Numbered from the stretch's first letter, positions 1,103-51,452 are shown. The stretch is 64,000 nt of DNA from Bacteroidota bacterium (GCA_022567155.1 JADFHN010000013.1:1-64000); one strand, 5' to 3'. The notes: generated by a model from the sequence alone, not told the origin. Translations and numbers: made by a program.

Positions 1103-1111
1103 TATGGGCTG

Positions 1112-2450: not shown

Positions 2451-2487
2451 TATTTTAAAAAAACAATTCTTTTTTTTATTCATTTCT

Positions 2488-2495
2488 TAGTTTTG
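2488..2495 (+). promoter_or_regulatory. Likely -7 box of thyA
   Basis: TAGTTTTG matches the Bacteroidota -7 consensus TAnnTTTG and lies 35 bp before the thyA start. No clear TTG was found at the -33 position, so this is a partial match. Confidence 0.35.
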
Positions 2496-2530
2496 TTTTC
2501 TGTTAGCACACTTTTCACTTTTAAAATAGA

Positions 2531-3325: not shown

Positions 3326-3464
3326 CTATTGTGACTGATTTTCAGTCTTATACTAGTATCTTTTAAATAAGATTTTGACCACTTATAATTTATTAAAGTA
3401 AGGATTGTCTTCTTTTGAGTATAATTACGTTTAAGTAGAATGCATAACAAGGTATTGATGATTA

Positions 3465-4142: not shown

Positions 4143-4159
4143 GATAAAATTAAAAGGCA

Positions 4160-5635: not shown

Positions 5636-5647
5636 CAAATTATATCC

Positions 5648-7024
5648 ATGGCAAAAAGAAGAAAAAAATCGAATAAGACACTATACATTTTGTTGGGGAT
5701 CGTAGCGATCCTGATAGTGGCAGTTATTATAGGTAAATCTGCGGGTTTTATTGGTAAGAAAAAGGAGATCGAAGTGGATCTTGCTGAAGCAAAGATGAGA
5801 ACAATTGTTGAAAAAGTGAGTGCTTCGGGGACTGTAAGACCTGTTAACGAGGTCAAGCTGAGTCCGGATGTTTCGGGTGAGATCATCGAACTGCTTATTG
5901 AAGAAGGTGATTCGGTGACGGTCAGCGAATTGCTTGTGAAAATACGACCTGACAATTTTATAAATGCAATGAAAAGAGCAGAAGCCAATTACAACCAGCA
6001 ACAGGCAAATCTGGCTTCAGCCAGAGCTAACCTGGCACGTGCCAAGGCTACCTTTGAGCGTATGAGGGACGAGTATGAGCGAAATAAAAAGCTGCATGAA
6101 GAAAAAGTGATCTCTGATGCCACCTGGCAAATTGCAGAACTAAATTATAAAATTTCACAAAACGACCTAGAATCGGCAAGACAGGGTGTAAATGCATCGC
6201 AATATATCGTGCAGAGTGCAAGGGCTACTGTAGAGGATGCCAGGGAAAATCTCAGACTTACCAATGTGTATGCGCCTGTAAGTGGTACGGTTTCAAAACT
6301 TTCTGTTGAAAAAGGGGAACGTGTGGTAGGAACCCGACAGTTTGCTGGAACTGAAATGTTGCGAATAGCAGATCTTAATAAAATGGAAGTTCGGGTAGAT
6401 GTTAACGAAAATGATATTATACGTATCTCTATTGGCGATACGGCAATTATTGATGTGGATTCTTACAGCTATATGGGTAAACTTTTTAAGGGAGTAGTCA
6501 CCCAAATTGCCAATACCGCAAAAGATAAAATATCGGCGGATGCAGTTACAGAATTTGAAGTGAGGGTGCGCATACTGAACAGCTCTTTTGCCGACCTTGT
6601 AAAAGAGGGCCGCAAAACCCCCTTTCGTCCAGGTATGACGGCAAGCGTAGATATCATTACCGATAGGAAAGAAGACATTCTTACGGTTCCGCTTGCAGCA
6701 GTTACTACACGAAAGTTAAGTGAAATTCTGAAAGACAGTATTGATTTGGAAGATTCCGGTGATAAAGATCGAATTAGTAGTCCGGACAATAAAAAAGAAG
6801 ACGAAAAAGTTGAAATTGTATTTGTTTTTGATGACGGGGTGGCAAGAATAAGGCAGGTAAAAACCGGGATAAGCGATTATGATAATATTGAAATTCTTGA
6901 AGGCCTGGAAGAGGGCGAAAAAGTGATTTCAGGACCGTTTCTTGCTGTTAGCCGTAGATTGAAAAATGAGGATCGGGTTGTAAGCAAAAAAAGCAAGAGT
7001 GAGGATGATAAAAACGGTGAATAA
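5648..7024 (+). CDS. HlyD/MacA-like periplasmic adaptor protein
   Basis: Membrane-fusion protein expected to bridge an inner-membrane pump and the TolC channel. The 458-aa sequence starts with a very basic segment and one membrane anchor (about residues 11-30). A biotinyl-lipoyl-like strand follows (VSASGTVRPVNEVKLSPDVS, then GEIIELLIEEGDSV), then a coiled-coil hairpin of about 100 residues (NYNQQQANLASARANLARAK), the second lipoyl half (LTNVYAPVSGTVSKLSVEKG), a beta-barrel domain and a C-terminal membrane-proximal domain (VFVFDDGVARIRQVKTGISD). This order is the MacA type, whose usual partner is an ABC permease (MacB). No permease follows: the next gene is on the other strand 47 bp away. Confidence 0.9.
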   Translation: MAKRRKKSNKTLYILLGIVAILIVAVIIGKSAGFIGKKKEIEVDLAEAKMRTIVEKVSASGTVRPVNEVKLSPDVSGEIIELLIEEGDSVTVSELLVKIRPDNFINAMKRAEANYNQQQANLASARANLARAKATFERMRDEYERNKKLHEEKVISDATWQIAELNYKISQNDLESARQGVNASQYIVQSARATVEDARENLRLTNVYAPVSGTVSKLSVEKGERVVGTRQFAGTEMLRIADLNKMEVRVDVNENDIIRISIGDTAIIDVDSYSYMGKLFKGVVTQIANTAKDKISADAVTEFEVRVRILNSSFADLVKEGRKTPFRPGMTASVDIITDRKEDILTVPLAAVTTRKLSEILKDSIDLEDSGDKDRISSPDNKKEDEKVEIVFVFDDGVARIRQVKTGISDYDNIEILEGLEEGEKVISGPFLAVSRRLKNEDRVVSKKSKSEDDKNGE

Positions 7025-7071
7025 AATTAAGGATGTTCAAGCCGGAGTTGGGGGAAATTGCCTGAAAGCGT

Positions 7072-32314: not shown

Positions 32315-35300
32315 TTAGTGGGATAAGATAAATTTCTCTCTAATCAATTGATTATCTGTACTTTCTATTTGGATAAAGTATACTCCGCTAGCCAACTTAC
32401 CGGTTTCAATCTGGTGAGATCTTATACCATCAACCAGATCTTTGTGATAAACCATTTTACCAAACTGATCAAATACACGCACAGTTTTCTCTTCATAGGT
32501 TTTGAATACCACAGTTATGGTTTCCGATGCCGGGTTAGGGTAGAGGAGGAGGTCGTCAGAAATAATTTCATCTATCCCGGTTATCACTTTTTGACCATCA
32601 ATCACAAGTGGTTCAATGGCAGCCTGTAGAGTTTTGTTAATGCCGTTACTATCAGCTTCTACAAGTTGTGTAAATACGATAACTGATAGATTTGTAAAAT
32701 CCGATGCAAACGGATTTTCCCAAGTTACTGTTGGCAGTGTAACTTCATTATCACTGACTTTTAGTGATTCGGACAGTGTACCCGCAGCATCTGGTAACAT
32801 TTTACGCATTACATATTCTTTGCCATCAACAGGATTTTCAACAACTATCACATGGGTGATTATACCTCCGTCTGGTAAATCTACCAGGGCTTTTAATTTT
32901 ACCTGAACATCTACTTCAGCAGACTCTCTTTGTGAAATGGAAATATCGGTATACTCAACATCTGGTGATGTTAATGATTTTGTTCCGAACATAGTTAGAC
33001 CCCAGTCCATGAAAAGACCATCATCAGAGTTATCCCCATCTATTATTGCCCGATTGGCTGAGGTAATATCATAGAATAGTGCTCGTGCATTGACATCTGA
33101 TCTATTCTCGTCATAAATATTGTCATCACCTCCAAAACCGGTTCTATATTGAATTTTGACAATTTCAGAAGTATTCAGAACTCCATCGACTTTTCCAAAT
33201 GGATTAATATGATCTACAAGATTGACTGCATTGGTTGTCACTTCGTTTTCAAAATGTTCCAGTACAACAATTCGGTCACGATCACTTATGCGGAAATCGT
33301 CAAATGCAAATCCCTGGGTTGGAGGTGAACCTTCAATACCCTTAAATAAAATACGGAAAACAACATTTTCTCTGCCTGTACTAATATCTGTTAATGTATG
33401 TCTTGATTCTTGCCATCCACTATTGTCAGATTGCCACCCATAGCCTACTGGATTGCCGGGAATCGTCTGAAGCTGTTGATCCAAAGATGTGTCATACCAT
33501 TCTATCCCGGAGCCTTCGCTTCCTAACGTTTTCCACACCCCAAACCTACCATCAGTGCTATATTGCAATAAAGCACCATTCTTAGTATGAGTGTAAGTGT
33601 TTAGAGTTACAACAGGTCTGACAAGTCCTGAAATATCGAAGCATGGCGAATATACGAATGATATATCGGTTTGGTCTGAATTCGGAATTGTATACCATGA
33701 TTCTCCTCTATTTTGATCCTCAAAATCCCCAGTTGCCGTACCTAATACCCATTCACTATTTGGACTGTCAAATCCCCATGAAATCCAGCCATGTGTTGAA
33801 TTGTTAAAATTCTCAATGTAGTTTAATGCAGTTACACTGTCAACGAATGGAACAATGAAAAATTCCTTGGTGATGGAGGATATACAACCCCGATCAGTTG
33901 TGATTTCTAAAGTAACACGCTTTCTACCGGTGTTTGCAAAGACATAAATTATCGGATCATTGGATGTTATTATTGCCGGATCAGTAATGATTATTTCATC
34001 GATTAAAGTTCCATCCCATTCGGCAAATGTCCATTTCACCTGGTTCTGAACTGAATTGTCCAATGCCGGGGTTGTGTTCTGAAACCATGAATCCTTCTGT
34101 TCGGCGATTGCTTCAAAATCAAATTCAGGTTGAGGGATTTCACCAACTGTAATAGTATTGGTTACTGTTGCCTGACAGCCTTTATCGTCAATTACAGTTA
34201 AGTCAACATTATAAGTTCCCGGAACATTGAATATATGGGCTGGATTTTCAAGTATGGAAGTATTGGTACTTCCTGTGGCATTGACATCATTAAAATTCCA
34301 ATTCCATTGAACAATATTACCGGGTGTTGTAGATGTAAATTGTACATCTTGTACTGCACAGGAAATACCTACATCGAAAGACGGTACGGGCAGAGGATTC
34401 ACAATTACATTGAGAGTCTGGAAGTCAACGCAACCATTGTTATTTGTAAATGTGTAGGTTATTGGATGAGTACCAACACCTGCTGCAGAGGCTCTGAATA
34501 TATTCCCTGAAACAATTCCATCGCCGGTGAATTCACCAGTTCCTTCCGATCCGGTGGAAATATTTGGGGTTAATTCATAATCCACATCATCCACACAGAA
34601 TTCCTGGCCTTCCTGTAAATTCAGAATCTGCACAAAATTGATCGGATTTATGATAATTGGCTGAATTACCTGGTCAGTACAACCCGTTGCAGCAATTGTA
34701 AATGAATAGATTAATGTTAGGCTAATGGGATCAAGGATTGCAATATCCCCGCCAGCCGCGGCAAGTGGACTGAAACTGAAAGTGCCATCTCCATTATCAA
34801 CTACACCATCAATATCACCACTAAATACTCCACCTGCTGCAGGAGTGAGGTTAAGCAGGAACGAGTCAGCATCTACGCAATATTCAGCAGGATCATCAAA
34901 TCCTGTCATGTCAACTGACGGGAGGGGGAATACCTCAACTTTCACATCTGTTGGTATACTTTCACAGCCATTGATTTCCTGGGTAACATAGAAAAGGGTG
35001 ATATCCTGGGTAATGACCGGGCTGAATATCGTTCCGATAAATGGATCACCGGTTAATGCTGCATTATCGTACCATCTGATATTAGCCCCAGTGACTGGAT
35101 TATCTACTGTCAATGTCCCTAAATCCTGGCCTTCACAGGCATTCTTATCCGAAGTTGTAGGAGCGGGGGGACGCTGGAATATTGTAACGTTAAATTGAGT
35201 AACATCATCACATCCCTTATCATCCTCATAGAAATACTCAATTGTGATCACATGAGAAGTATAATCGTCTGCTGTAAATACTTCATTACCCGGAATGAAA

Positions 35301-38300
35301 TTGAAAACACCCGTACTTGGATTATCAATGAGTCCATTGGGATCACCTCCAACAACTGAGAATGTGAATGTATTCAAAGGATTTATACCTGCATCACGGG
35401 TAAGTGAAATAGGGGCTTCATTATCACAATAAAATAACGGAATTGGATCGGGAGCTAACTGAGGAATCAGGTTTACGGTGGTAACCTGGGATCCAAATGG
35501 GATAACATTTGCCGGGTTCGCTATCTCCCTTTGAGTATATTCAACCAATTTAGATCCACCGCCTGTCTGATCAGCAGCGGCTTGAGGATCATAGAAAGCC
35601 GTACCGTCACCGTTATCCGTAACCCCTGGCCCTGAAAATTTATCAAACTCAAATCCTATGGCAGGGGTAAAAGTAGATGCCACTTCAACATTTAAAATAC
35701 CATTGTCCTCGCAGTACTCACTAGCCAATACCACAGCATCTCCAGTCCCTACGATAACGACCGATGCACTTGCATCAAATACTGTAAATTGTTCGGTTAT
35801 GCTATTTATACAGCCGTTGATATCGGTGTAGGTAAATACAATGTCATGTTCATTGCCAACCGTGGTTATACCAGCCACGTCGGGATCAAAGAAATAATCC
35901 CCATTGGCATCCTGAATAACTCCATTGCCTGAAAATACTCCCACGTCGATCGTGTAAGTAGTTGGGTCGGTAGGATCAAAAGGCATCGCTCCGGATTGAA
36001 AACCGCCAATCAAGTCCACATTTGGTGCAGTAGTACTAAAGGAACGTGCTAATGGTTTTACAAACCCCGGGATCGGAAGAGGATTCAACGTAACGTCAAA
36101 GAAAGTCAGAACGCTTTGACAACCAAACTGATCGGTTTCGATTACCTCCACATCGAAATCACCATCCGTGCTACCCCAGTCCACAAAAATCTTATCGGTA
36201 CCCTGACCAACGACTATCGAGCCGTTGCCTGGTGGGTTTAAGGACCAGTTATAGGTGCTACCAGGTGTATTGATGACCTTGTATGGCACTAAAGTGCTGT
36301 TTACACAAAGGAATGTGTTGTTGTCAGCAATCTTTGATGGGATTGGTAACGTATTGACATCAATGTTTAGAGTTCCATCGATTGGCGTTCCACAGGTACC
36401 ACCAGAAGGAGCTAATGTTATTTGTACAGTTCCATTAAGGACATCATTGTTCCCCAGCGTATAGGTAATGGAGACCTGACTATTCCCATCCACCGGAATA
36501 TTAGTTATTGGTCCATCCCATGTACCATCTCCATTGGTGGACCAGGTACCCTGAGTTGCTCCGCCACCGATAATACCTACTATGAATACGTCCGGATTAG
36601 GGACATCCAAACATATAATCTTGTCAGGACCCATATCAGCTGACTGACTGGTGGTGAAAGTAATCTTGATCACATCACTATCCTCTACGCAGGGAGCAGA
36701 AGAGTTGGTGGATGTCAAGGTGATGAATAGGGTGTCCAGAGCAAAATCCTGGGCAGTAAAGGCGTAGTCAGTACTGTGGTTACCAGATCCATCATCCATG
36801 ATGCTTGAGAATGAACCCGTACCGTTACTGGGACTCCAGGTTCCGGTTTGTGACGATCCGGTGATCAATCCAGTCAGGTTGATCATGTCTCCACTGTTCA
36901 GTCCAACCAGGCAGACAGGGGGAACCTGGCTAACCGTTACATTAGACTTTGTGAATTCGGTTATGGTTACGGCGTTACCCTGATCAAGGCCTGCAGGTAC
37001 CGGTACCGTACAGCCGTTGGCATCAGTCACGGAGAAAAGCGTGTAATCATTTGGTCCTACAACCGGAGGGTCGACGGGGATCGGGTCCAGGCTAATATAA
37101 TTGGATACCGGAATTGCAGGACCTCCGTTCACTTTGTATTCTATGGTGTATGGAGCTGTGCCACTTACAATGGAAACACGAATCGTGGATGCCGTGGTAC
37201 CTTCAGAACAAACGGTATTGGCTCCATCCAACTGGATTACCGCCGAAGTAGGCCCCACAGCGGCCTGATCCACGGATAGGCCTGTTACTGATAGGGGGTT
37301 GGTTCCAATGGGCGTAACATCCTGCGCTTTAGTAAGCCGTACATTTACATCTTCCAGCATATTTGGGGGAACCTCTACCTGTAATTGCGTGTCGGAAATG
37401 ACTGAGACTGTAGCCTGATTGGCCGTAAAGCAAGTAATACCGTCGCTTACGTAGCAGAATTCAACCTGTGTAACTCCCTCATTGTTGGTATAACCGATAA
37501 AATACTGGCCTTCAATTATGATATCCGATTCCACACAGATTGCGGCCGCCCCGATTGTTTCCATGATATCGGTGATGACCGCATTGGCGAAGGTTTGGAA
37601 AAGCCAGTCAGAATTACCCAGGAAACCTGCGTATGGGTTACTGGCTTTGTCAAGAATGGTTCCGGCATCAATTTCAATATAATATTGTTTCCCGTTGGTT
37701 AAGTTCAGGGTAGGATTAATGGTAACATCTGCCCCGGAGAAGGAAATTCCAAGATGATTAGCCACGTCGGTGAATGATTCGATTAGGGTGGGAGTAACCC
37801 CGTCCCATTCATAAAGTCTTATCTCTGAGCTTGGGCTCGGGTTTGGAATCAGGTTATCGTCCAGAGTAATGGTAAGGTTTGCATCGATTGGGACGCTGAA
37901 TTTATTGTTAATGGGTAGAAGCGAAACCAAAGTTGGGTCGGTCTTGTCGAATGTTACACTGGTTCCATCTGTAACTGCAACAACTGTTGTTCCCGGATTT
38001 CCTGCATCGTCTGTATAGTTTATTGTAAATTCAACTAATCCTTCCGTATCGGTTACATCTGTGATGTATTGGGTGGTATAATTCGGAAATGTTCCTCCTG
38101 GGGTATCTGCGTTTGCAATAGCGACTGATCCGCTTGTAAATACCGAAGAAATGCTTGGCACATCCAGGGCTTCATTTGCTGTTATTGTCACGGTAACGAC
38201 ATCACCCACTTTTGCATAATTGGGATCTGCATTGGTTGAGGTGATTGTTACTGCTGTAATGTCAGGGAGGTTAGCATCACCTGCCAGAGTATTTGCCGGC

Positions 38301-41300
38301 AGAGTATTCACGGTTACCTCATTATTTGCCGCGTCTTTAATTCTCAAGTCAACCGCCAAAATTCCGGCAGCCCAGTCGGCATCCATATCCGTGAGGGTAT
38401 ATGTGAACGTGTAAGTACCATTCGCATTGTCTGTAAAAGATACTGATACATCAACGCCGTTGATGGTGGCCACGGAACCAACGGCAAGTCCTGTTTCAGC
38501 CCCGCCTTCTGTCAGGGTCACCGTTACGCTTTGTCCTACAATCACGGTTCCATTATCTGGGTTTAGGACTGTGGTTGATACAGTGGGAGTATTGGCATCA
38601 ACGGCTGGTGTGGTGCTTGTAAATGTCGAGGTTGTACTTGTATTTCCCACGAGATCCTCCAGTGTAATACTCACAGGAAGAGCATTAGCAGCCCGATCTG
38701 TATGGCCTTCCTGGATAGTATAGGTGAATGTATAGGTGTTATCTGCATTATCGACAAATGTACCGGATACATCCACCCCATTGACAGTAGCATTAGGAAC
38801 CCCCTCTAAGACGAGACCAGTTTCATTGCCGTCAATATCAATGGTGATCACTCCTCCCACGCCGAGTAAGCCGGAATTAGGTGTAGCAACTGTTGCACTT
38901 AGTACAGGCCTGATACCGTCAATTACAATATTCTTATTGTCTCCAAGTGAATTACCTCCACCGATATCGGGCAGGTCCAGATTAACGGTAATAGTCCCGG
39001 CTATAGTACCACCATTCAAATCGATGCCATCGTTGCTGCTTTCATACTCCAGATCTGCGGTAACATCGCCCTCAACGACAGTGTAATCAAATTCCAGGGT
39101 CATTGTTCCGGACCCGGTTCCATTGTATGTAGCATATTGATCTGTTGTGCCGGTTTCAAGCAAAATTCTCGGGCTAAGCGTAACATTAACAAGCTGATCA
39201 AAAGTAACTTGCACCGTTATTACACTCCCGATTCCATAGGATCCGTCGGTATTACTGGCGGTCATGTTGGTTATGACAATACTGAGTTCCTGGGCATCAC
39301 CCTCAAATGATTCCGTAGTTTGCAGTGCCCCCGAACCTGTTGTAGTGTTACCTTCAGCTACAAAGAAAATATCATATGAGTTAAACTTCGTTTGGGCGAT
39401 AACCTGGCTTACTGTACCTGCCGAGAAGGTAAAAGATCCGGATTCACCTACTTTACGTTTACAACCACCAACTATACAAGTGCCCAGATTCGCCCCGGCA
39501 GTTGCATTTTTTATCTGGGTAGGGGTAACAGTAATGTGCGGTAATCCGTCTCCACTCCCCCCGGGATCATTGTCAACTGTAGCCCAGTAAATAGTCCCGT
39601 CTTCGTCGGCATTAAAATTTAATGTAAAACTGATCTTCTGAATGATATCGGTCACAGTAGGGCCAGCCGTAAAAACGGGTGGACTGGTGTCCTTGGTGAT
39701 GTCGTCGGTGACATCTCCACCCTGGTTGGAATTTGCATCGGTAAGATATACTGTCAGGGTTAGCAGATCGTCATCCAGGGAAGAAACATCGATTCCACTG
39801 ATTTGGTCTGTTGCTGTTGCAATTACCCCGTTTCCGATAACGGCCGCAGTACCTACGTTGGTATCGTCAATGGAATAATTGTAGGTGACACCAACTTCCG
39901 CACCTGCGAAGGTGAATGAAAATGCAGTTTCGTTAGTAACATTTATTTTGTTGGGGTCGTCACCCGCGTCAATAGTCACCGAATACCCGGAGGGAGCTAT
40001 CAAATCGATCAGGTTAACAGCCCCTGTAGTTTCCGTAACCGGTGATACATTCATGGAAGCATCATAAATTGAATTCAATACGGGAGTGATCTCGATCGTT
40101 TCAGCTCCACTTGCGGGAGGATTCACTTGGTTCAATACAACCCGTACTGTAGTTTCCCCCCCAACGAGTGCCCCTCCTGAAGTGTTGGTGGCACCAGTAA
40201 TAGTAACATCTGTCACAGAACCTCCCGAATTCATGACAAAACTGATATCAAAATCGGACCCATCAGCAGCTAGCGGCGAAGATCCATCGCTGTCATACAC
40301 CCCTTCATTAAATTCTACATCAATGTATGTGTTATCAGGGGCCATGGTTCCACTAACAATCGCAGGTGGACCTGTATCGTTCAGATTGGCTTGTACGGAC
40401 TGAGGGAATGCGCCTTCATTACCCGCCAAGTCAAAAAGTTCTCCGATACCGTCTAACTGAGCGGTCAGCACTTCAGTACCATCCGGAGTTCCGGTAAAGT
40501 CAAGGTCAAATGTTACCGTTGAAGCCCCTGCAACGTGTACAAAATTAGCTACTCCGTCTCCTGTGGGGGTCGCACCACCTGATGTCATGGAGAAATCTAT
40601 TTCATTGTTAATTCTTAACGCATTGCTACCTGGATTCCTATAAACTCCCTCTGAAAAGGTCAAAAATCCATTGGAGTTATCACCAGCGAGGGTCATGCTT
40701 AACAGGACTGGCAACTGACCATCATCTACGTTAAAACCTGCTACATCTGCAGCGTTGTTACCCGCTCCGTCTAATACCTGGTCACTCGCATCATCATTGA
40801 TCGTTAAGGCAAAGTCACTCGCTGTGTATCCTGTATTGCCTAGTGAAGTTACTGATAGGTTTACAATTGAATTATCTGCATTCTGGGCCGCTCCTGTTGA
40901 GGTGAGACCTGTTGCTGTCCAGTCTGCTGCTGTATTCCATGTTGGTGTGACATTTTCACTGTATTGTAGTTCAACAAGTACGTCAGATACTGCTGTAGCT
41001 GTTAGTAATACTGGTAGTGCTGCGTCCACTGTACTTATCGCAGGGTCTGAGGCTACCAGCGTTCCATCAGTTAATGTCCCTTGTGTATATGCAACGGTTG
41101 TTACCGCAGTTCCACTTATACTTACTTGGAAGGTAAAAAATTTATCATCGACTGTACCAGGATCCAACGAATTTACACCACCACTGGCTAATATTGATAT
41201 AGGTGGGGATCCCCCAATGTCAAAATCTCCCAGTACGATCGATATATCGTCAATAGGCCCAGTCATTTCAATTACTACTTCTTCGACACTTCCATTCCCA

Positions 41301-41404: not shown

Positions 41405-41425
41405 AAATCTCAATAATAAAAAAGT

Positions 41426-42565
41426 TTACAAATCTCCATTCTTGTCCGTCTTTATCAGCACCATCATGCTTGCTATCCCCGCTTCGGAAGTCCCGAAAAT
41501 GGCAAAACCTCCGTCGAAGGTCCCGATTGCAGCCCCCGAGGATTCAGTGCTCACCCAGTCAATGGTTTTTGAGAAAGTAGATATATTGTCTCCGATAACG
41601 TTCCCGCTGCTGTTGGTTTTATGTAATGTAAAGTTTCCTCCTGAGGTAGTTAAAATAGCATATCCACCATCGTTTAATGCAGAAATGGATAATGCATTTC
41701 CTGCTACCAGTAAATGGGAGTCGACAAGAGTCATCGATTGGGAAAGATCGTAGAATACAACATTGCCATTGCCGTCATTTCCAATACCTCCGAAATGATT
41801 GTTTCGGGAAGTCTGATCGATGTCCACAGCGAATGAAACAGGTAAAGGTTCTTGCTGGCCGGGTATTTCATTTCTGGCGGCTTTGAATGCTTGCCCATCA
41901 TTCGCGCTTGCCACCCAAACATATTCCTGGCTCATGACATCCTTTACCATGGATCGACCAGGACTGAAAGAAAATGTGGAGTTCAACTCCTGGACCCATT
42001 CATAACCGGAGGATTGAGTAAATGAAAACTGAATATAAAAGAGTTCATTGTTACCATTATTGTCCCAATATCCTAATCCAATTACCTCGCTTTCGTTCTC
42101 AGCATAAACGGCTGATCCGCTAAAACTTTTTCCATTGGATATGCCCCCAATAGAGTTGATTATTGATTGCTTTTCGAGGACACCAGATGTATTAATTTTC
42201 AGGAGCATGATGGAATTGATACCGGAGACATTATTAATACTGTCGCCGATTATATAGTAACCATCATCTCCAATGTCAAGATCATTACCTTTAAATCCAA
42301 TCACACTATTCACTGAATTCGAGACCCATACTATGTTTCCAAAAGAATCTGTTTTAAATAATAGGGTCCGGGTCGTATCCCCCGAAACGTTGTAGCCTAA
42401 ACACAAAAGGTCACCTTCCGGAGTTTCTTTTAAAGTCACCCCAAAGTTATTTCCCGGATCACCTAAAAACCTGACATAGGTTTCTGTTTGACTCGGTTCA
42501 ATATCAACGAGGTCCTGACAAGCAATCAAAAAAATCAGAGTAAAATATTTGATGAAATGCTTCAT
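41426..42565 (-). CDS. Lipoprotein with propeller-like repeats
   Basis: 379-aa lipoprotein: signal MKHFIKYFTLIFLIACQDLV with the lipidated Cys at residue 16. The mature part repeats short blocks of the kind GDLLCLGYNVSGDTTRTLLF, GYYIIGDSINNVSGINSIML, EVIGLGYWDNNGNNELFYI and GGFAIFGTSEAGIASMMVLI (a G-x-x-x-x-G-x-t pattern, then a strand ending L/I-x-K-x-D/N). That pattern suggests a beta-propeller. Such lipoproteins often sit on the outer membrane beside T9SS cargo. Its start overlaps the stop of the barrel gene by one base (TAATG), and it ends 21 bp before the giant gene's ATG. The function is unknown; the position argues for a partner of the giant protein. Confidence 0.75.
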   Translation of the reverse strand: MKHFIKYFTLIFLIACQDLVDIEPSQTETYVRFLGDPGNNFGVTLKETPEGDLLCLGYNVSGDTTRTLLFKTDSFGNIVWVSNSVNSVIGFKGNDLDIGDDGYYIIGDSINNVSGINSIMLLKINTSGVLEKQSIINSIGGISNGKSFSGSAVYAENESEVIGLGYWDNNGNNELFYIQFSFTQSSGYEWVQELNSTFSFSPGRSMVKDVMSQEYVWVASANDGQAFKAARNEIPGQQEPLPVSFAVDIDQTSRNNHFGGIGNDGNGNVVFYDLSQSMTLVDSHLLVAGNALSISALNDGGYAILTTSGGNFTLHKTNSSGNVIGDNISTFSKTIDWVSTESSGAAIGTFDGGFAIFGTSEAGIASMMVLIKTDKNGDL

Positions 42566-43626
42566 TACAGTTTTCGTGGTTTATAGATATTCAGTGTATA
42601 TCCGACGGTAAAAGTGGCAAAGTGCTCCTTATAGGCATCAGGAATTACTCTTTCTGGTACTTGTCCTTTATTAGCGGGTGAAAATGAAAATTCCCCCGTG
42701 GAAACTTCTGTGATACCATAATTCGCCCTGAGCTCTGCCACGAAATAACCTTCTCCTAATTTTATTTTAACGCCACCTCCCAGGAATGCGTAAAAGTTGA
42801 GTTGATTACGTTCATCCGTAACTTCTCCCAGGGTATTCTCAATAGGATTTTTTTGCCGGTTAAGAGAATTATCGGATGCGGGATATTCAGCCATTATTAA
42901 ATAACTGGCGGAACCACCCGCATTTACATAGGGTCTGATATTGCCATCCTTGAGTCGGTATTGGACTGACACTGGCAATTCAAGCCAGGTCTGACGTTCC
43001 GTTTCTTCTTTCCTGTCAACGACCTCAGTTGGATCAGTCAGGCCCCCGAATTCCTCGACATTGTCGAAAGTTCTTGTAGAGTATAATAGCTCGGGGTATA
43101 TGGTCCAACGCGGTGAAAATTCATATTCAAAAACAAGGCCTCCGGTAACACCCTGCTTGGCTATGTACTCAAACGCGCCGGGATCACCCGACTGTCCGGT
43201 TGTATATAACGTGGTAGCCTGGATAGAGGTAATATTTGGACCACCTTTAAATCCTATTCGGAATATTGGTTTGGTCCTGTAAGAGTTATAAAGGTTAATA
43301 AACTCAACGGGGTCCAGCGCTTCATCCGGAACAAATTCATGATCGGTTTTTAATAGTTCCAGCATCATATCATCTGCCTGCTCATCCCTGTGTTGGAAAA
43401 TTGCCGACAAAATGAGTAACCGCAATGCCTGGACTGATTGTGCCTTATCGAATACGTTTGTTTCCAGGCAGTTCAAGACCAAAGGTTCCACATCCTGGAT
43501 CCTTCCTTCATCATACCGAAGCTGGGCTTCTTCCAGGTTTTGAGTACACCTTTCTTCCTGTGCGAGCGCATTTGTTGCGAATAAGCTAAATATCAGAAGC
43601 GTAAGGAAGGGTAAGAGTTTTTTCAT
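42565..43626 (-). CDS. Outer-membrane beta-barrel protein with helical N-domain
   Basis: 353-aa exported protein. Signal peptide MKKLLPFLTLLIFSLFATNA. An N-terminal helical domain of about 90 residues (CTQNLEEAQLRYDEGRIQDV, AQSVQALRLLILSAIFQHRD) resembles TPR-type repeats; a linker follows (ALDPVEFINLYNSYRTKP). The C-terminal barrel begins FRIGFKGGPNITSI and has PorT/OMP_b-brl-type strands (YELP-type turns such as LELPVSVQYRLKDGNIRPYV, FLGGGVKIKLGEGYFVAELR). A C-terminal FTVGYTLNIYKPRKL closes it. TPR-plus-barrel proteins are frequent beside T9SS-linked surface complexes. It starts 6 bp after the STAND gene. Confidence 0.8.
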   Translation of the reverse strand: MKKLLPFLTLLIFSLFATNALAQEERCTQNLEEAQLRYDEGRIQDVEPLVLNCLETNVFDKAQSVQALRLLILSAIFQHRDEQADDMMLELLKTDHEFVPDEALDPVEFINLYNSYRTKPIFRIGFKGGPNITSIQATTLYTTGQSGDPGAFEYIAKQGVTGGLVFEYEFSPRWTIYPELLYSTRTFDNVEEFGGLTDPTEVVDRKEETERQTWLELPVSVQYRLKDGNIRPYVNAGGSASYLIMAEYPASDNSLNRQKNPIENTLGEVTDERNQLNFYAFLGGGVKIKLGEGYFVAELRANYGITEVSTGEFSFSPANKGQVPERVIPDAYKEHFATFTVGYTLNIYKPRKL

Positions 43627-43632
43627 AAGATA

Positions 43633-46600
43633 TTATTCCTCGTTTTTTAGATTAGCTGAAATTATACATGTATTTTCATATTCTATATCTACCCCCACAT
43701 GTGCTTCCCATTCCACATCTGACATGTTCCTGGTTATATAGGTACACATCTTATCTGCCATGATACTGGCATGGGTGGGTAAAGCTTTCAATTCTTCCCT
43801 TTCCGATCCGGCAAATACAAAATTATTATCCGGAGAAAACGCGGTTGAATAAACAAATCTACTTTCCGTATAGGTGACTGGAATTTCATTCAAACTCTCC
43901 AGGTTATAGATGCGCGTTGACTTGTCGTTCGAAGCAGAAGACATAAATGTGGATTTGCCGTTTACCATATTAAAATCAATATCATGTACAATACCAGTAT
44001 GATCGGTAAACCGCTTGATCATGCTATAGTCGCTGGCATTCAAAAGAATAATGGCACCATCCTCATCTCCGTAGGCGAGGTACCTGCCGTCCGGGCTGAA
44101 TTTAACCGATTCAAGTATTTTGCCGTCGTCGGATGGAAATGTCGTTAAAACTTTACCCGATCCGGCATCCAGAATTACTATCTCTGAACTTATGCCTACT
44201 GCCGCAATCAGATTGCCTGCGGGATTAAGATCAAAATCCATCAGCTCCTGCATGGCAGTGAAAAGAGTGGATATGCTACCTCCGTTAATTCCTACTTTAC
44301 GGATCGACTGGCCGTTATTATCTTTGAAAATAATGAACCGGTTATCGGGAGTAATGACTACCGCGCTGGCTTCATTAATAACTCCTTCGATCGTTTTTCT
44401 CGAGTTATTAGTCAAATCATGGACTTCGAGATACGTTGTTCGTTGGGTGGGTTCAGATTTAAATTCACCCACGGCTACCAGCCATCTGCCGTCATTACTC
44501 ACGGCGATATCTTCGATCTTGGAAATAGCGAGTTGGGCTCCTCTTCCGGCTTCAATTACAGTAGGTTGTGAAATACCATTATTGAAGGTCCATTTTAATA
44601 TTTTCCCGCGTGTATCGCCTGTATATATGGCATTATTTATCCTTGAAGTATGGGCGGCATAGATCTCTTTCTTGTGACCTATGAGGGATAGTGTGATGGG
44701 ATCTTCAAACTCCGTCAGCGCCCTGTGGAGGCCGCTGAAAATATCGGCTTCGTATGCACTTCCTTCATATTGATTATTGAAAATATAACCCTGCAATGCC
44801 ATAAGACCACGAAGTTGCGGGTCCGGAATATTGCCCGTTCCGGCTTTACTGCCAAGACCTTTAGCCAGCGCTAAGAATCGCTCTCTGGTAGCTATTTCGC
44901 TTTGTTCCGTTGCTAATTTCTCATTCTTTGTAGCTATGCGTGCGCTTGAATCGGCCAGTATTGTTTGCCTCTGCGCAATTATTGTTTGTGATTCAGCGAT
45001 TCCTTTTTGTCTAATAGCCTCATTACTTGCAACTACCGCCGAGTCCCTCGCAACTTTAGCAGAATCAGAACTCAATTCTGCCATTCGTTGTTGAAAGGAT
45101 GCCTCCTTGGCAAAAATATCTGCTTGTTCTTTTTGAAATAGGGCGGAATCTTTTTGGATATTTGCTTCTACAGAACTCGAATCAGCAGAAAACTGCGCTG
45201 CAACAGCTAAAACCAAGCTCCTATCTGCTTGTGTTTTTTGCGCAAAGGCATACAGCAGAAATGCAATCGAAATGACCGTGGCGCTGGCTAAAACGATTAC
45301 CGTAATCCGAGCGTTTCTTAACCGCCTTTTGGCTTGCAACTCTTTAACCCGCTGCTCATTATCATACTCCTTCTTGGAGTACTCCAGAAACGACATGGTG
45401 CGTTCAAAGGCGGCATCATAGCGTTGTCCCCAAACCAGGGTGGGCTTGTGTTTCACCTGCCAGTTGAGTGCCAGTTGCAGGTCGGGTGGTCTCCATAAGC
45501 CGGACTTACCTACCTGGTACATAGCTGCAGCCTCCGCCAACCGCATGTACATGCCCACAGCTTCGGATTCTTCGTCAACCCAGTTTTTGAGGCGTTTCCA
45601 GATGCGCATCAGGCTTTCATGTGATATATCAATGATGGAATTAGGTGAAAGCTTTACGCCATGCTGGGGTGTGAGGAATGAGCGCCCCGGTTTTCTGAAT
45701 GTAATGATCACATCGGCAAGTTCTTTGTTTTTACAGTCTGCCATGGCGGCAATATCTTTTAACAGGGTGGGGCGCCGGATACCAAATGTGCCGCGTTTCT
45801 CTGTAATGGCTTTGAAAAGGGCTTCACAGATCTTTTTCTGTTTTTCATCCAGCTCATGGTACGCTTCGTCGGCATGCTGTGAAAGCGCTTCCGACATGGT
45901 ACCGATAGCTTCGTAATGTTTCAAATCAAGTATTTCATTCCCTTCGCGGTTTTTACTCCAGTAGTCCCAGGTACGCATGAGCGCATGCTGCAGGATGGGA
46001 AGCTGGTCGGGGTTATCACCCAGGTCATTGAGTAGCCTGTTTACCAGCCGTTGGGCATTTTCGCCGTTGGCAACCGCTGCAGGACCTTCAATGGCTTTTC
46101 GTTTTTGTTCGCGGGTAAGTTGCGGAATAAGATAATGACTATCGTTGATCTTTCGTGTAAGATTCGCAAACTGGGCACAGTCACCGATAAAGTCAGACCG
46201 CATAGTGATTGCAACATAATACGCATCCTCTTCCGAATCCACGGTCTGCATCAGCAGGTTTATAAAAGTAAGCGTATCGTCAACCGAGTATTTATTCTCA
46301 ATGTTTGCTTTGTACCTGAATAGTTCTTCAAACTGATCAACCAGAATCAGGTAGTTTTTATTTGTGGCCTGCTTGATTTGCTTGATGGCTTCCACAAGTC
46401 CCTGCGAATCACTCCGCAGCAGTGTGGTAATGATGGTTTTACGGATGTTGTGGTCGTCTTCCGGTTCGCCCTGGAAGGCAGGATCTTTTTCAAGCAGGGC
46501 TGAGGCGAGATTCTCAATAGGGGAGGAACCTGGCCTGAGAATGATGACGTCCCAGTTAGGGCCTGTCTTTGCGAGAAATCCACCGAATAGTATAGGCAAC

Positions 46601-46827
46601 ACGCCGCAATAAACAAACGAAGATTTACCACTGCCTGACGGCCCTATAATGCCTACAAACCGGTGCTGTGCAAGTTTTTGAAGCACTTCGTCCGTTTGCC
46701 CTTCACGGCCAAAAAAGAGATGACTTTCTTCTAATTTAAATGGCCGCAAGCCTGGATAGGGGTTAAACAGTATCCCACTCCCGGTATTTTGTGGTTTTGC
46801 AGCTTTTTGTTTTGTCTTACCCGCCAT
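43633..46827 (-). CDS. nSTAND1 NTPase with TM helix and WD40 repeats
   Basis: 1064-aa protein. Residues 20-45 (FNPYPGLRPFKLEESHLFFG) are the nSTAND1 entry motif. Walker A is IGPSGSGKSS (61-70), Walker B YLILVDQFEELFR (159-171). Helical STAND linker domains follow (LRTWDYW, FGIRRPTLLKDIAAMADCKN, ISHESLMRIWKRLKNWVDEE). At about 502-525 one strong membrane helix (ITVIVLASATVISIAFLLYA) is followed by a coiled coil rich in Ala/Ser/Gln/Lys (about 530-650) and a C-terminal WD40-type propeller (FSPDGRYLAYGDEDGAIILL, AFSPDNNFVFAGSEREELKA). STAND proteins are signal-gated ATPase switches. If the helix spans the membrane, the WD40 sensor is periplasmic and the NTPase cytoplasmic. Confidence 0.9.
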   Translation of the reverse strand: MAGKTKQKAAKPQNTGSGILFNPYPGLRPFKLEESHLFFGREGQTDEVLQKLAQHRFVGIIGPSGSGKSSFVYCGVLPILFGGFLAKTGPNWDVIILRPGSSPIENLASALLEKDPAFQGEPEDDHNIRKTIITTLLRSDSQGLVEAIKQIKQATNKNYLILVDQFEELFRYKANIENKYSVDDTLTFINLLMQTVDSEEDAYYVAITMRSDFIGDCAQFANLTRKINDSHYLIPQLTREQKRKAIEGPAAVANGENAQRLVNRLLNDLGDNPDQLPILQHALMRTWDYWSKNREGNEILDLKHYEAIGTMSEALSQHADEAYHELDEKQKKICEALFKAITEKRGTFGIRRPTLLKDIAAMADCKNKELADVIITFRKPGRSFLTPQHGVKLSPNSIIDISHESLMRIWKRLKNWVDEESEAVGMYMRLAEAAAMYQVGKSGLWRPPDLQLALNWQVKHKPTLVWGQRYDAAFERTMSFLEYSKKEYDNEQRVKELQAKRRLRNARITVIVLASATVISIAFLLYAFAQKTQADRSLVLAVAAQFSADSSSVEANIQKDSALFQKEQADIFAKEASFQQRMAELSSDSAKVARDSAVVASNEAIRQKGIAESQTIIAQRQTILADSSARIATKNEKLATEQSEIATRERFLALAKGLGSKAGTGNIPDPQLRGLMALQGYIFNNQYEGSAYEADIFSGLHRALTEFEDPITLSLIGHKKEIYAAHTSRINNAIYTGDTRGKILKWTFNNGISQPTVIEAGRGAQLAISKIEDIAVSNDGRWLVAVGEFKSEPTQRTTYLEVHDLTNNSRKTIEGVINEASAVVITPDNRFIIFKDNNGQSIRKVGINGGSISTLFTAMQELMDFDLNPAGNLIAAVGISSEIVILDAGSGKVLTTFPSDDGKILESVKFSPDGRYLAYGDEDGAIILLNASDYSMIKRFTDHTGIVHDIDFNMVNGKSTFMSSASNDKSTRIYNLESLNEIPVTYTESRFVYSTAFSPDNNFVFAGSEREELKALPTHASIMADKMCTYITRNMSDVEWEAHVGVDIEYENTCIISANLKNEE

Positions 46828-46830
46828 AGC

Positions 46831-48309
46831 TTATAGTACTTGTTGCCGTGTTTGTAAAAATTTTTGTATATCGTTTACAGGAGGTTTATTCCCCGATTCA
46901 TGTATGATTTCAACATGCTTATCATCGTTCAACTTCTCGAAATCTCCTTTGCTGTGCTTTCCGATCAATACACCTTTATTTAATATGGGCTTAATCCTTC
47001 CGAATCCAGGCGCTTTTAAAAGATCCAGAAGTTTCATTCGTACCCACTGGTCGTTTACGTGCCCCTGGTAGATCAAAGCAAAATCCAGCTTGCGCAGGTT
47101 ATAGATATGACCTTCCCGTAGGTCAAGCAAATCGCCTTCGAATGTAGGTTCCAACACATTATAGCCCATATTTTGAATTTCTTCTTTTATAGGTTCAACC
47201 GATTCTTTATCTACCTGATCATGTATCAGATATACGTTGCGGGCGTTGTCGTTTTCATCCTCCGGAACGTATTGCATGTCAGATTTGTCACCTGTGGAAA
47301 AAAGTTCATCCCTGACAATGTTCTTAAAATCCTCAAGCGGCAACTGCAATATTTCCGCACCTTCGAGTGCGGCAATGTCTCTTTTTATATTTTCAATAAA
47401 GGTCAGTTGTTTTTCGCTGGCAACCCGCAGGTCAGGAACGATCCAGATAAACCTGTAAATCTTGTTTTTAATTTTGCTATTTTTCCTGAGTTCCGTACTC
47501 CATTCAACTGCAAGACTGTTCTGAATATCGATTACTGATTTAGTGCTTCCGTCCGGTATTTCTCCGTACGAGGTTCCGATCAGGTGAATTGTAAGACTGC
47601 ACTGTTCAAGATTTTTTTTGATTTGTTTCTCAACATCATCGTAAGAAGGAGGCAATGCATAAATAGGCAATACCCTGAATCCATAACGTTGCAATTCACG
47701 TTTGATGATGTTTCGCTGAATAGTCAGATCGTGGGCGGTTTCAGCAAGATAAACGGCTTTACGGTCCTGAATGGGCCGTACCCTTCTGAGATCAACACCC
47801 TTGCCGATCAGGTATGTTTCATGGACATCATATACGAGATCTACCATTTTCATCCAGAATTCACGTTCGGAATCCTGACCGAGATAAGGCTTGAATTCTT
47901 CAGCTTCCTGGGTTTCATCATCATAATGAAACATATCATAACCTATCAATTCCCTTAGCCTTACAGGCTGGTCTTTGATTTTCACAGGAGCTTTTAACAC
48001 CTTGAACACGCGTTGGGCTTCTTTTTCCCTTGATTTCAGGTAAAAATCTTCCAGTGCGTCCAGGCAATTCGGATTATCAATAAAATAAGGGCTTATGATG
48101 CAGACCATTGCATCAGCGCCTTCTATCATCTGTGCAGCTATGGCCTCAGTACCCGATAAAAGTACAATCTCAGGCTTACTGCCAATTACCTGGTGCAGCA
48201 TGAGGTTTAAAAACCGGCTGAAACTGTCAACCCAACCTTTACCTGAATCAATCGACGGATTATTGTCGTTTTCAGAGTAGTTAATAAGAACTTTAAAATT
48301 TGCTGGCAT
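46831..48309 (-). CDS. Protein of three tandem TIR-like domains
   Basis: 492-aa cytoplasmic protein. Domain 1 (about 1-155): FKVLINYSENDNN (TIR box 1-like), EGADAMVCIISPYFIDNPNC (box 2/alpha C region), then DMFHYDD. Domain 2 (about 185-330): KAVYLAETAHDLTIQRNIIK, EQCSLTIHLIGTSYGEIPDG, KSVIDIQNSLAVEWSTEL. Domain 3 (about 356-470): RNVYLIHDQVDKESVEPIKE, LDFALIYQGHVNDQWVRMKL, KGVLIGKHSKGDF. In domain 1 the residue three after the Cys, where NAD-cleaving TIR domains have Glu, is Ala (C-L-D-A-L-E), so NADase activity is uncertain. It lies 3 bp upstream of the STAND gene, its likely partner. Confidence 0.75.
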   Translation of the reverse strand: MPANFKVLINYSENDNNPSIDSGKGWVDSFSRFLNLMLHQVIGSKPEIVLLSGTEAIAAQMIEGADAMVCIISPYFIDNPNCLDALEDFYLKSREKEAQRVFKVLKAPVKIKDQPVRLRELIGYDMFHYDDETQEAEEFKPYLGQDSEREFWMKMVDLVYDVHETYLIGKGVDLRRVRPIQDRKAVYLAETAHDLTIQRNIIKRELQRYGFRVLPIYALPPSYDDVEKQIKKNLEQCSLTIHLIGTSYGEIPDGSTKSVIDIQNSLAVEWSTELRKNSKIKNKIYRFIWIVPDLRVASEKQLTFIENIKRDIAALEGAEILQLPLEDFKNIVRDELFSTGDKSDMQYVPEDENDNARNVYLIHDQVDKESVEPIKEEIQNMGYNVLEPTFEGDLLDLREGHIYNLRKLDFALIYQGHVNDQWVRMKLLDLLKAPGFGRIKPILNKGVLIGKHSKGDFEKLNDDKHVEIIHESGNKPPVNDIQKFLQTRQQVL

Positions 48310-48329
48310 ATGTTTTTAATTTAGTTGTT

Positions 48330-51300
48330 TCATGCTTTTACAATATGTGTTTTGTTGTCATTGATTTCAATATTTTCCAGCACCTCACTGGCGAGGTCTC
48401 TGAAATTGGTTAAAACACCCAGGAAATCGCTGAGGTCAAGCAGGTAAAGTACGCAGTGCTGCGTTGCCCTGATTTTATATTCGCGTGTATCCTCGTTATC
48501 CAGAAAAAAGGCCCCGAACACCTCATTTTCTCTTAATTTATACGAATTATCGGTGCTGAACAGCTCGCTTTCTCCTGTTTCAGCAATGATCAGCGGATTG
48601 GAGCCTTTGTATCCTGCCAGATCATATGCCTCACCTTTCCTGATTTTTACAACATGTATCTTTTCCACAAATTGTGAAAGATGCAGTTTGACTACCGGTT
48701 TGAATACATCAAGCGTTGAAAGCATAAGCGTTTTACTAAAACGCAGTTTATTTTTTTCTTCCACTTCACCTACCAGTGTCGCAGATCGCATCCGGTCTTT
48801 CAGATAATATCTCCGGTCATCGGGCAACCGGTCAATGATTTCCGTCAACCGGTCTTCACTCAGCTTGCGAATCACCAGTGCAGCATTTTCAGCCAGTAAT
48901 AGATCCGGATTGAAAAGGTGTGCAATCAAACCCTGATTTATCTTAGTACTGGGATGAAATGACATACAGTGCAGTGCACATGCTTTCGTCCAGCGGTTGA
49001 TGTAGTTAAAATCCCGGTTGACAATGTAGTTAAAGGTCTGAAGTTCGTTAAAACTGATCCTCGGATAAAATTCCTGGACTTTTTCAAGTTTTTCGCTGAC
49101 AGTAATATCATCTATCAGAGGAAAAAGCTTTGGTTTGAGTTCTTTGGAAATAAATACATCCAGTAGTTCAGTGGCATAGGTGATGCCATCTGCAGTTCCC
49201 AATTCCACATTTTCTTTCACCAGCTGTATAGAAGCAGGATCGTATAATATGGATAAATAGATATAAATAAATTCGAAATTACTTTCTATTTCATAGTTAA
49301 GCGAATCAATCAGGTCCTGGTTGTGATCCTTATCTATTATTTCGGACTGCGAAGCAATATTCCAGAAGGCTTTACCAATTTCGATGTCAAGCTGTGCGTT
49401 TATTCTTGCGGCATGGCTTTCGTCAGGTTTGAAATTTGCATTCCGGATCGAAAGCAGGATTTCTTTTACAATTTTTCTGTCAGGATATTCGACCTTATCC
49501 CATAAATAATCAATGGCTTTTTCGCTTCCCAGCCTGCCCATTATTTGCACTACTCGCTGCAGGGCATCTTTCGACTGATCTGATTTTTGAAATATCTGGT
49601 TAATTACAGGTAAAACGTCATCTCCGCCTGCATATAAGGTAGCTGCAGCTTCATTTCCGAATACAACAGAACTCAGCATGTCCGTAACAATCACCCATGT
49701 TTCAGGCCTTTTGACTTTCCTTGCCGTTTTCATCGCCTCCATACGTACAATGGATGATATATCCCGTAGAAGTTCAAGCAGCACAAATACGTTTTCATCG
49801 GAAATGTGACTTCTCAGGTAAATGGCTGCCGTGATTCTTGTTTCTATATCTATGGATTTTGCCATTTCATATAGATCAGGATCACTGATAGCTACGCCAC
49901 CTCCTTTTTCTGCTTCTTTGACAGCTTTTTCAGCAAGTTCCCGGCTGGCATTCATATCGATTTGTGCAAGCTTTTTACGGGTATATTCAAATAACTTTCC
50001 TTTTGTTGGAATATTTCCAGCGAGTTTTTTTATTGAATTTTCAAAATCTTCCGGCTCCAGACGCTCCATTAATTTTAAAGAATAATAAACGGAGGCCTCA
50101 TTTTCTCTGACTTCATCAGGTGTAATTTCCTCTTTGTAACCTTTTGAAATAAATGACGACACGTTGGATTTAATATTAGACAATGTTTCCTGAAGGGTCG
50201 TCCGGTAACTAAAATGCATTTTTCCGGTAGTGAAAAACCAGGCTATCAGTGCCGGAATAATGATAAAAATTACGACAATCAAATCTAACTTCAGGGTGTT
50301 CATTAAAATCAGGAGTAAACCAGCTATTATGGCCGCAAATGCAGTTGCAACACCTTCGATTTTAGTGTTGACATCAAAACGTACGGTTGAATCAATGGGT
50401 AAAAAGTATAATTTAAAGGTAGGTCCATCGAGGGCGTCTCTTAAGGAATCGATGAATAGTTTAGTAATGGAGATTGCCAGGAAAAACCATACGAATTGTT
50501 CTGAAAAAGCACCAAGCATACCAGATATGACCACAAGTATGATTATAAGTGCGGGATTGATCAGTAAGGCCAGTTTTAGCCCGTAATTATCAATAACCCA
50601 GTCAGTTACGAATGTCTGGAAAAGGAAGCTGAAGATGACCACGGTGGCCTCGAACCGGGCGATAAATGCACCCAGATCATTTGGATCCGGCCATTGGGTT
50701 TGCGTAGCGCTTAAAAATGCGTAATCCACAAAAGTAATGGCAACGATAGATATCAGCACGAACATGATCATCAGGCGCAGGTATTTGTTCCTGATCATTT
50801 TCGGGATAGGGAAGGTCTTTTTCTTTTCTCCGGCTTCCTCCCTGAGTGAAAATTTTACTGAAATGATTATAAATGAAGCCAGCAAGATCACCAGAGCGAA
50901 CATGCTCAACAGGAACAATTGTACTATTGTAATGATAGCATTTTCAATGATAAATCCAATGGTAAACAGTGCCAGAATAGATGCCACCAGTTGGCCGGTA
51001 TCAATACCTCCAATAATTCTTTTTGCTTGCCGCACAGTGAAAATCCGGCCAAAAGTACCCCAGAAAATAAGCAGTCCGATGTAGGTAAAGGGTAGTGCAA
51101 ATACAAACGCGGTAAATGCAATGGGTTCAAAATTGTCATAAAAGGTAAGTCCGTACCATACAAATGAGGAAACCAGAAAAATAGATATAAGATATCCGAT
51201 TACCAGGCTGGGAAAACTGACCCTGGCCTGCAGATAGGCATATAAATAGGTGGCAAAAACCCCTACAACACCGGATGCAACAAAAGCCCAGGCAAGGGAT

Positions 51301-51452
51301 GATTCTTCGAAATATTGCAAAAAGATTGTAACGGCGCCAACATCATACGTCGCCAGAAATATACCGGTAAAAAATCCCTGAAGCAGCAGGAGATATACCT
51401 TTGTGCTTTCTTCAGGCCGCGCATTTAACGATTTTAATATTATAGAACCCAC
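48330..51452 (-). CDS. Transporter-like protein with HEAT and cNMP domains
   Basis: 1040-aa protein. Residues 1-430 contain about 12 hydrophobic helices (LLLLQGFFTGIFLATYDVGA, FTYIGLLIFWGTFGRIF, MIMFVLISIVAITFVDYAFL) and recall the ATP:ADP antiporter/MFS-like group that carries C-terminal soluble domains. About 470-800 are HEAT-type helical pairs (AAIYLRSHISDENVFVLLEL, MEAMKTARKVKRPETWVIVT). About 905-1030 form a cyclic-nucleotide-binding-type beta roll (VVKIRKGEAYDLAGYKGSN, FGAFFLDNEDTREYKIRATQ), without an obvious phosphate-binding Arg motif. The start is GTG. It is the first gene of the run, 20 bp before the TIR gene. The substrate is unknown. Confidence 0.75.
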   Translation of the reverse strand: MGSIILKSLNARPEESTKVYLLLLQGFFTGIFLATYDVGAVTIFLQYFEESSLAWAFVASGVVGVFATYLYAYLQARVSFPSLVIGYLISIFLVSSFVWYGLTFYDNFEPIAFTAFVFALPFTYIGLLIFWGTFGRIFTVRQAKRIIGGIDTGQLVASILALFTIGFIIENAIITIVQLFLLSMFALVILLASFIIISVKFSLREEAGEKKKTFPIPKMIRNKYLRLMIMFVLISIVAITFVDYAFLSATQTQWPDPNDLGAFIARFEATVVIFSFLFQTFVTDWVIDNYGLKLALLINPALIIILVVISGMLGAFSEQFVWFFLAISITKLFIDSLRDALDGPTFKLYFLPIDSTVRFDVNTKIEGVATAFAAIIAGLLLILMNTLKLDLIVVIFIIIPALIAWFFTTGKMHFSYRTTLQETLSNIKSNVSSFISKGYKEEITPDEVRENEASVYYSLKLMERLEPEDFENSIKKLAGNIPTKGKLFEYTRKKLAQIDMNASRELAEKAVKEAEKGGGVAISDPDLYEMAKSIDIETRITAAIYLRSHISDENVFVLLELLRDISSIVRMEAMKTARKVKRPETWVIVTDMLSSVVFGNEAAATLYAGGDDVLPVINQIFQKSDQSKDALQRVVQIMGRLGSEKAIDYLWDKVEYPDRKIVKEILLSIRNANFKPDESHAARINAQLDIEIGKAFWNIASQSEIIDKDHNQDLIDSLNYEIESNFEFIYIYLSILYDPASIQLVKENVELGTADGITYATELLDVFISKELKPKLFPLIDDITVSEKLEKVQEFYPRISFNELQTFNYIVNRDFNYINRWTKACALHCMSFHPSTKINQGLIAHLFNPDLLLAENAALVIRKLSEDRLTEIIDRLPDDRRYYLKDRMRSATLVGEVEEKNKLRFSKTLMLSTLDVFKPVVKLHLSQFVEKIHVVKIRKGEAYDLAGYKGSNPLIIAETGESELFSTDNSYKLRENEVFGAFFLDNEDTREYKIRATQHCVLYLLDLSDFLGVLTNFRDLASEVLENIEINDNKTHIVKA

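Follow-up and report, generated by a model that had tools for sequence, protein, structure and literature searches.

A conserved six-gene operon of Cytophagales, apparently undescribed, with TIR-like, STAND and T9SS surface-protein genes

The six genes of the operon

The window analysed here is a 64,000-nucleotide stretch of DNA from a Bacteroidota bacterium (GCA_022567155.1 JADFHN010000013.1:1-64000). Six ORFs occupy positions 32315-51452, all on the minus strand, with intergenic gaps of 20, 3, 6, -1 and 21 bp. An earlier note, made from the sequence alone, had described six same-strand genes with these gaps, and the ORFs were found where it placed them. Its domain calls were also right in substance (NTT/HEAT/cNMP-like, TIR plus DUF4062, nSTAND1 plus WD40, OMP_b-brl_2, lipoprotein and T9SS type A giant). 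The operon is preceded on the same strand by queA, 199 bp upstream, and the next gene downstream encodes a small ArsI/CadI-like protein. Scans of the operon for promoters (sigma-70 and Bacteroidota type) and terminators gave matches at the levels seen in shuffled sequence. The window also holds a SerB-type phosphatase fused to phosphoglycerate dehydrogenase (632 aa, 29569-31467), which adjoins a SerC-like gene.

Gene 1 (48330..51452, minus strand, 1040 aa) combines an NTT-type membrane transporter fold, HEAT repeats and a degenerate cNMP-binding-like C-terminus. A search with the single protein finds HEAT_2 above cut-off and gives weak matches for the NTT and cNMP parts. Against solved structures, the gene 1 family profile matches the ADP/ATP carrier (E 2e-20), the cNMP domains of cyclic-nucleotide-dependent kinases (E ~1e-19) and HEAT-like proteins and designs. 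Gene 1 thus has all three parts in one chain and can be placed in the NTT-HEAT-cNBD fusion family described in PMC5381601, where the parts come in the same order. The portion of that paper concerned with these fusions mentions no link to TIR, STAND or surface genes, unlike the operon described here. Gene 1 also differs from the fusions in its cNMP pocket; the residues of the pocket and phosphate-binding cassette are not conserved in the gene 1 family. "cNMP-binding" is thus a fold label only, and cNMP sensing by gene 1 was dropped as a candidate function.

Gene 2 (46831..48309, minus strand, 492 aa) matches TIR_2 and DUF4062, both above the Pfam cut-off, and DUF4062 is matched by 32/39 of its orthologues. 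The AlphaFold model has three alpha/beta TIR-like domains in a row (mean pLDDT 82, pTM 0.59) and matches solved TIR domains with a TM-score by target length of about 0.6, which places the protein in the TIR fold. The active sites are degenerate. Domain 1 (aa 5-130, 47920..48297, minus strand) reads Asn-Cys-Leu-Asp-Ala in place of Trp-Cys-x-x-Glu, so the window protein lacks the signature of catalytic TIR NADases, in which the Glu of this motif lies in alpha C. The complete motif is present in 0/45 operon-type or solitary proteins (8/45 have Glu at the column), and it is kept in 5/6 loose two-gene TIR-STAND pairs. Domain 2 (aa 184-325, 47335..47760, minus strand) is the DUF4062 domain. The TIR-like NADases of the DUF4062 family share a conserved Glu, which Swarozyc and TEP1 require for activity (PMC13174449). 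The Glu column that is invariant in 13 Bacteroidota DUF4062 proteins aligns with Gln263 of the window protein, and Gln occupies it in 39/45 operon-type and 6/6 pair proteins. We take this column to be that of KpSwz E97 from the statement in PMC13174449 that the conserved Glu of the family is the catalytic one. Acidic residue 261 was considered as the DUF4062 active site and dropped, since the alignment with the 13 proteins puts the Glu at 263. Gene 2 therefore belongs to DUF4062 but differs from Swarozyc and TEP1 in having Gln for the catalytic Glu, in the two further TIR-like domains that flank it and in lying outside any defence island. In domain 3 (aa 357-450, 46960..47241, minus strand), Trp422 is invariant (45/45) and a K-x-PGxGR motif spans 432-438. 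Lys426 (42/45) falls at the expected TIR Glu spot by Trp+4 spacing, the Glu-to-Lys change being a motif reading.

Since a conserved catalytic Glu is missing from all three TIR-like domains, gene 2 cannot have catalysis as its conserved role. The Glu at the domain 1 column in 8/45 proteins makes residual activity possible in some lineages. From these residues we infer that gene 2 is a pseudo-TIR, a non-enzymatic adaptor or scaffold. The earlier note had proposed activation of the TIR protein by the STAND protein. If this means switching on an enzyme, the lack of a conserved Glu speaks against it, as does a paralogous operon that has no TIR gene at all (see below).

Gene 3 (43633..46827, minus strand, 1064 aa) encodes nSTAND1 (E 1e-96) and WD40 domains. 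The key residues of Walker A (aa 62-69, 46621..46644, minus strand) and the DQFEE residues are invariant in 33 sequences, as expected of a STAND NTPase of the nSTAND1 type. The WD40 profile of the family matches APAF-1 among others. The NTPase is followed by one strong hydrophobic segment, the single TM (approx. aa 510-528, 45244..45300, minus strand), then by a putative alanine-heptad coiled-coil stalk (approx. aa 534-653, about 17 heptads, 44869..45228, minus strand) and a WD40 propeller (approx. aa 714-1014, 43786..44688, minus strand). The mean net charge of 15 residues is +4.1 before the TM and -0.2 after it, and the charge before exceeds the charge after in 129/132 proteins. By the positive-inside rule this bias predicts a cytoplasmic N-terminus, with the NTPase inside and the WD40 propeller in the periplasm. 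After the TM an alanine recurs at every seventh residue, giving 16-19 heptads over 109-126 residues in most TIR-bearing operons; as a helix (0.15 nm per residue) the stalk would be ~17 nm long. With the NTPase predicted inside, a TM, a stalk of this length and a periplasmic WD40 domain, the gene set plausibly spans the envelope. Gene 3 resembles STAND receptors (nSTAND1-WD40, APAF-1-like) in its NTPase and C-terminal WD40 sensor. It differs from them in adding the TM and the long stalk, in the predicted periplasmic position of the sensor, and in being encoded with a barrel, a lipoprotein and a T9SS giant.

Gene 4 (42565..43626, minus strand, 353 aa) has a signal peptide, a helical repeat-like N-terminus and an outer-membrane beta-barrel of the OMP_b-brl_2 family (PF13568, E 8e-17). 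Gene 5 (41426..42565, minus strand, 379 aa) is a lipoprotein with an invariant Cys16; domain searches returned no family match for it, and its model is a confident beta-propeller (pLDDT 86, pTM 0.86). Gene 6 (32315..41404, minus strand, 3029 aa) is a giant surface protein with PKD/Ig-like domains. Its Por_Secre_tail match (E 1e-13 in Pfam, 1e-10 in NCBIfam) identifies it as T9SS cargo of type A, the C-terminal sorting domain covering aa 2954-3026 (32327..32545, minus strand). A type A T9SS C-terminus was found in 17/17 further giants with a readable C-terminus (read lengths 1642 to 5221 aa); in three of these the call was made by eye, their motif being FPNP or YPIP. An outer-membrane barrel beside a giant T9SS surface protein is also the layout of SprB/SprF-type T9SS adhesin loci. 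The operon does not belong to that class; its barrel is OMP_b-brl_2 rather than PorP/SprF, its sorting domain is type A, and the match to CHU_C is under the cut-off. We know of no STAND or TIR in SprB/SprF-type loci.

Conservation and variants across the order

A TIR orthologue is present in 47/98 related genomes, which cover the family of the window's genome and eleven other families of the order. The gene order NTT, TIR, STAND, barrel, lipoprotein, giant recurs across the neighbourhoods of the hits. A separate named collection supplied 80 loci (all but L175 scored, from a scan biased towards close relatives), from Fulvivirga, Chryseolinea, Chryseotalea, Pseudochryseolinea and many Cyclobacteriaceae MAGs. 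Each neighbour is found in every locus whose flank reaches that far (NTT 67/67, STAND 70/70, barrel 67/67 and lipoprotein 64/64), as is a last gene of at least 700 aa (54/54). The earlier note had asked whether the six families stay neighbours in other genomes, with scattered homologues as the outcome that would count against its reading. Across these 80 database loci they do stay neighbours, and the TIR-STAND and surface modules that it had placed in one operon are conserved as a single unit. Among the 98 genomes, 45 have both TIR and STAND, 2 TIR only, 5 STAND only and 46 neither (Fisher test, uncorrected for phylogeny). One of the two TIR-only genomes is 58% complete and the other has a weak hit. 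NTT genes also co-occur with TIR and STAND across these genomes. The correlation of the operon with T9SS (GldM) was set aside as uninformative, GldM being present in 94/98 genomes.

The median pairwise identity over 30 genomes is 61.5% for the NTPase, 35.5% for the NTT membrane part, 32.0% for TIR, 31.3% for HEAT-cNMP, 30.6% for stalk-WD40, 26.8% for the barrel and 20.6% for the lipoprotein. Most giants were not found by sequence search with the window's giant. Judged by these comparisons, the NTPase is the constrained hub, and the outward-facing parts evolve faster.

The median gaps across loci are 16, 4, 3.5, -1 and 50 bp. The earlier note had named, as a second outcome that would count against it, separate promoters splitting TIR-STAND from the surface genes. 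In most genomes the TIR, STAND, barrel and lipoprotein genes nearly overlap one another, and a wider gap is found only between lipoprotein and giant, so that in some species the giant may be transcribed from a promoter of its own. This wider gap, together with the ability of the TIR gene to be lost (type II) or to stand alone, would agree with there being no functional link, i.e., the TIR-STAND-NTT and surface genes being co-transcribed by history only. We regard that as very improbable, since the STAND, barrel and lipoprotein genes stay together, near-overlapping, in many families and in both paralogues, and since stalk and barrel neighbour go together.

The link between stalk and barrel is seen in the variant loci. 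STAND proteins that adjoin an outer-membrane barrel carry the stalk. No barrel gene adjoins five two-gene pairs (L048, L085, L086, L087 and L109), whose STAND proteins have 0-3 heptads, and a pair-like locus, L075, has a TonB-receptor barrel beside a STAND with 15. Two stalked STANDs without a barrel neighbour (L076 and L079) make the link strong, not strict.

On another contig of the window's genome lies a second set, NTT, STAND, barrel, lipoprotein and giant, without TIR. The giant of this copy (L090, G000:C48:19000-38500, at 2-8699) is in two overlapping ORFs of 1313 and 1610 aa, through either a frameshift or an assembly error. In the tree, 14 STANDs of TIR-less operons form one strongly supported clade nested among the TIR-bearing ones, so the simplest account is loss of the TIR gene after duplication of the operon. 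Several TIR-less operons have a broken alanine pattern, which accounts for a lower heptad count there. Three genera (L024, L025 and L037) have a solitary triple-TIR gene at the queA/menC position, and in these genomes TIR-less operons sit elsewhere; that the solitary TIRs act on them in trans is a guess. The reduced 1.6-Mb genome G072 keeps five of the genes, with no giant adjoining (L043). CTP-synthase-like and YidC-like genes come after the five-gene set there (L043:1784-6628).

Four of the two-gene TIR-STAND pairs in Bacteroidota (L048, L085, L086 and L109) have the same triple TIR-like protein directly upstream of nSTAND1. They differ from the operon in keeping Trp-Cys-x-x-Glu in domain 1, in a STAND without a stalk and in having no barrel, lipoprotein or giant. 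These pairs are candidate conflict systems in their own right. The pairs lie near the base of the tree, and we infer that the operon descended from catalytic TIR-STAND pairs. The tree is midpoint-rooted with long branches, so the polarity from pair to operon is unsure.

Additional genes accompany the operon in some lineages. A SpoIIE phosphatase gene lies between NTT and TIR at five loci in three families (L041:4436-6388, L051:12928-14961, L074:1973-5170, L108:1764-4955 and L077), with sensor parts that vary (HAMP or two-component propeller repeats). L075 has a divergent SpoIIE phosphatase gene nearby. The L041 and L051 inserts partly match SiaA-type HAMP-SpoIIE phosphatases (252 and 241 bits), scores that fall well short of the 700 bits required for SiaA, and SpoIIE is absent from the window's operon. 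SpoIIE beside TIR in some lineages suggests that the output is protein (de)phosphorylation. At one locus of family f11 (L072:14971-18389), two STAS genes and one HATPase_c_2 anti-sigma-type gene, a partner-switch module, lie upstream of the STAND-barrel set. The divergent neighbour at 47 loci is a PorE/CHU_0125-like TPR-PD40-OmpA envelope protein, its matches being below the curated cut-offs of both families.

Defence, surface control or signalling

The earlier note had also offered a defence reading, which found no support in the context of the operon. In a version taken further than in the note, binding of a phage or rival at the surface would act through the STAND protein on a TIR NADase and kill the cell. 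Defence systems do often use TIR, DUF4062 and STAND domains, the DUF4062 of Swarozyc being a TIR-like NADase (PMC13174449), and the loose pairs elsewhere mostly keep the catalytic motif (5/6). The operon TIR-like domains, however, lack a conserved catalytic Glu. PADLOC gave no system match for the operon proteins or ten neighbours, the only traces being mad3/mad8 hits confined to a short P-loop stretch and a weak hit for HEAT, and searches of 72,556 plasmids and 50,697 phages gave no match. The neighbours are housekeeping genes such as queA and menC, the same spot at which other genera have their solitary TIRs, and conservation is order-wide rather than in patchy islands. An origin in a defence island was dropped on the PADLOC result, the housekeeping surroundings and the absence from these plasmids and phages. 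Anti-phage suicide is unlikely, and we consider conflict of this kind improbable as the purpose of the operon.

The direction of any signal is a separate question. The STAND gene is followed by those for the barrel, lipoprotein and type A T9SS giant, a PorE-like envelope protein often lies divergently beside the operon, T9SS is close to ubiquitous across the order, and the TIR-less paralogue keeps STAND, barrel, lipoprotein and giant. All of this would suit a system that works from the inside out, in which the STAND NTPase and stalk act on the barrel and lipoprotein, timing or driving assembly, anchoring or turnover of the giant in adhesion or gliding regulation. The known role of STAND NTPases is that of a switch rather than a motor, and the operon has neither a PorP/SprF family barrel nor the type B sorting domain of SprB-type loci. 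We therefore hold inside-out control to be rather unlikely, though less so than conflict.

We favour a putative trans-envelope signalling switch that would work from the outside in and use a pseudo-TIR adaptor, to which we would give about an even chance. The barrel and the propeller lipoprotein would hold or read the giant, itself exported by T9SS and displayed at the surface, a step suggested by gene linkage and predicted localisation. The WD40 head of the STAND protein, in the periplasm, would receive the state of the barrel and lipoprotein and hand it on through the ~17-nm stalk and one TM helix to the cytoplasmic NTPase. The NTPase may then oligomerise or change its nucleotide state, as is known for the family. 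The triple TIR-like protein would serve the NTPase as a cytoplasmic adaptor or scaffold, not as an NADase, and the NTT-HEAT protein may be a further inner-membrane partner. In the lineages with a SpoIIE-type phosphatase beside TIR, protein (de)phosphorylation is a possible output.

The outside-in switch is favoured by the conserved order and near-overlap of the genes, the co-occurrence, the invariant Walker A/B and high conservation of the NTPase, the positive-inside topology, the stalk-barrel link, the type A giants, the SpoIIE inserts and the PorE/CHU_0125-like neighbour. Its pseudo-TIR component is favoured by the degenerate sites of operon TIRs against 5/6 intact pairs. Against the switch we count the solitary TIRs, the Glu in 8/45, stalked L076 and L079 without a barrel, G072 without an adjoining giant, and the wider lipoprotein-giant gap. 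Of the envelope relay proposed in the earlier note, the geometry fits (the charge bias in 129/132 proteins and the type A T9SS C-terminus in all copies read), and activation of a TIR enzyme is not supported.

The locus is thus a real, conserved and apparently undescribed six-gene operon of Cytophagales. Every part of it belongs to a known family, and a search of open-access full text found no published description of the operon or of this arrangement. More tentatively, at somewhat less than even likelihood, it may represent a new class of trans-envelope receptor. In such a receptor the STAND WD40 domain would be carried on an alanine-heptad stalk of fixed length to a barrel, lipoprotein and T9SS giant, and the whole would go back to a TIR-STAND conflict pair in which the TIR enzyme had been converted to a pseudo-TIR adaptor. 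The genes are present in the cultured genera Fulvivirga, Chryseolinea and Chryseotalea, so the idea can be tested.

If the outside-in switch is correct, immune-type STAND and TIR parts would have a non-suicidal use in bacteria, in signalling from the surface to the cytoplasm across a whole order. TIR domains act as adaptors in animal Toll signalling, and the operon would be a clear case of bacterial TIR adaptors. The T9SS giants, whose purpose is mostly unknown, would gain a candidate signalling partner.
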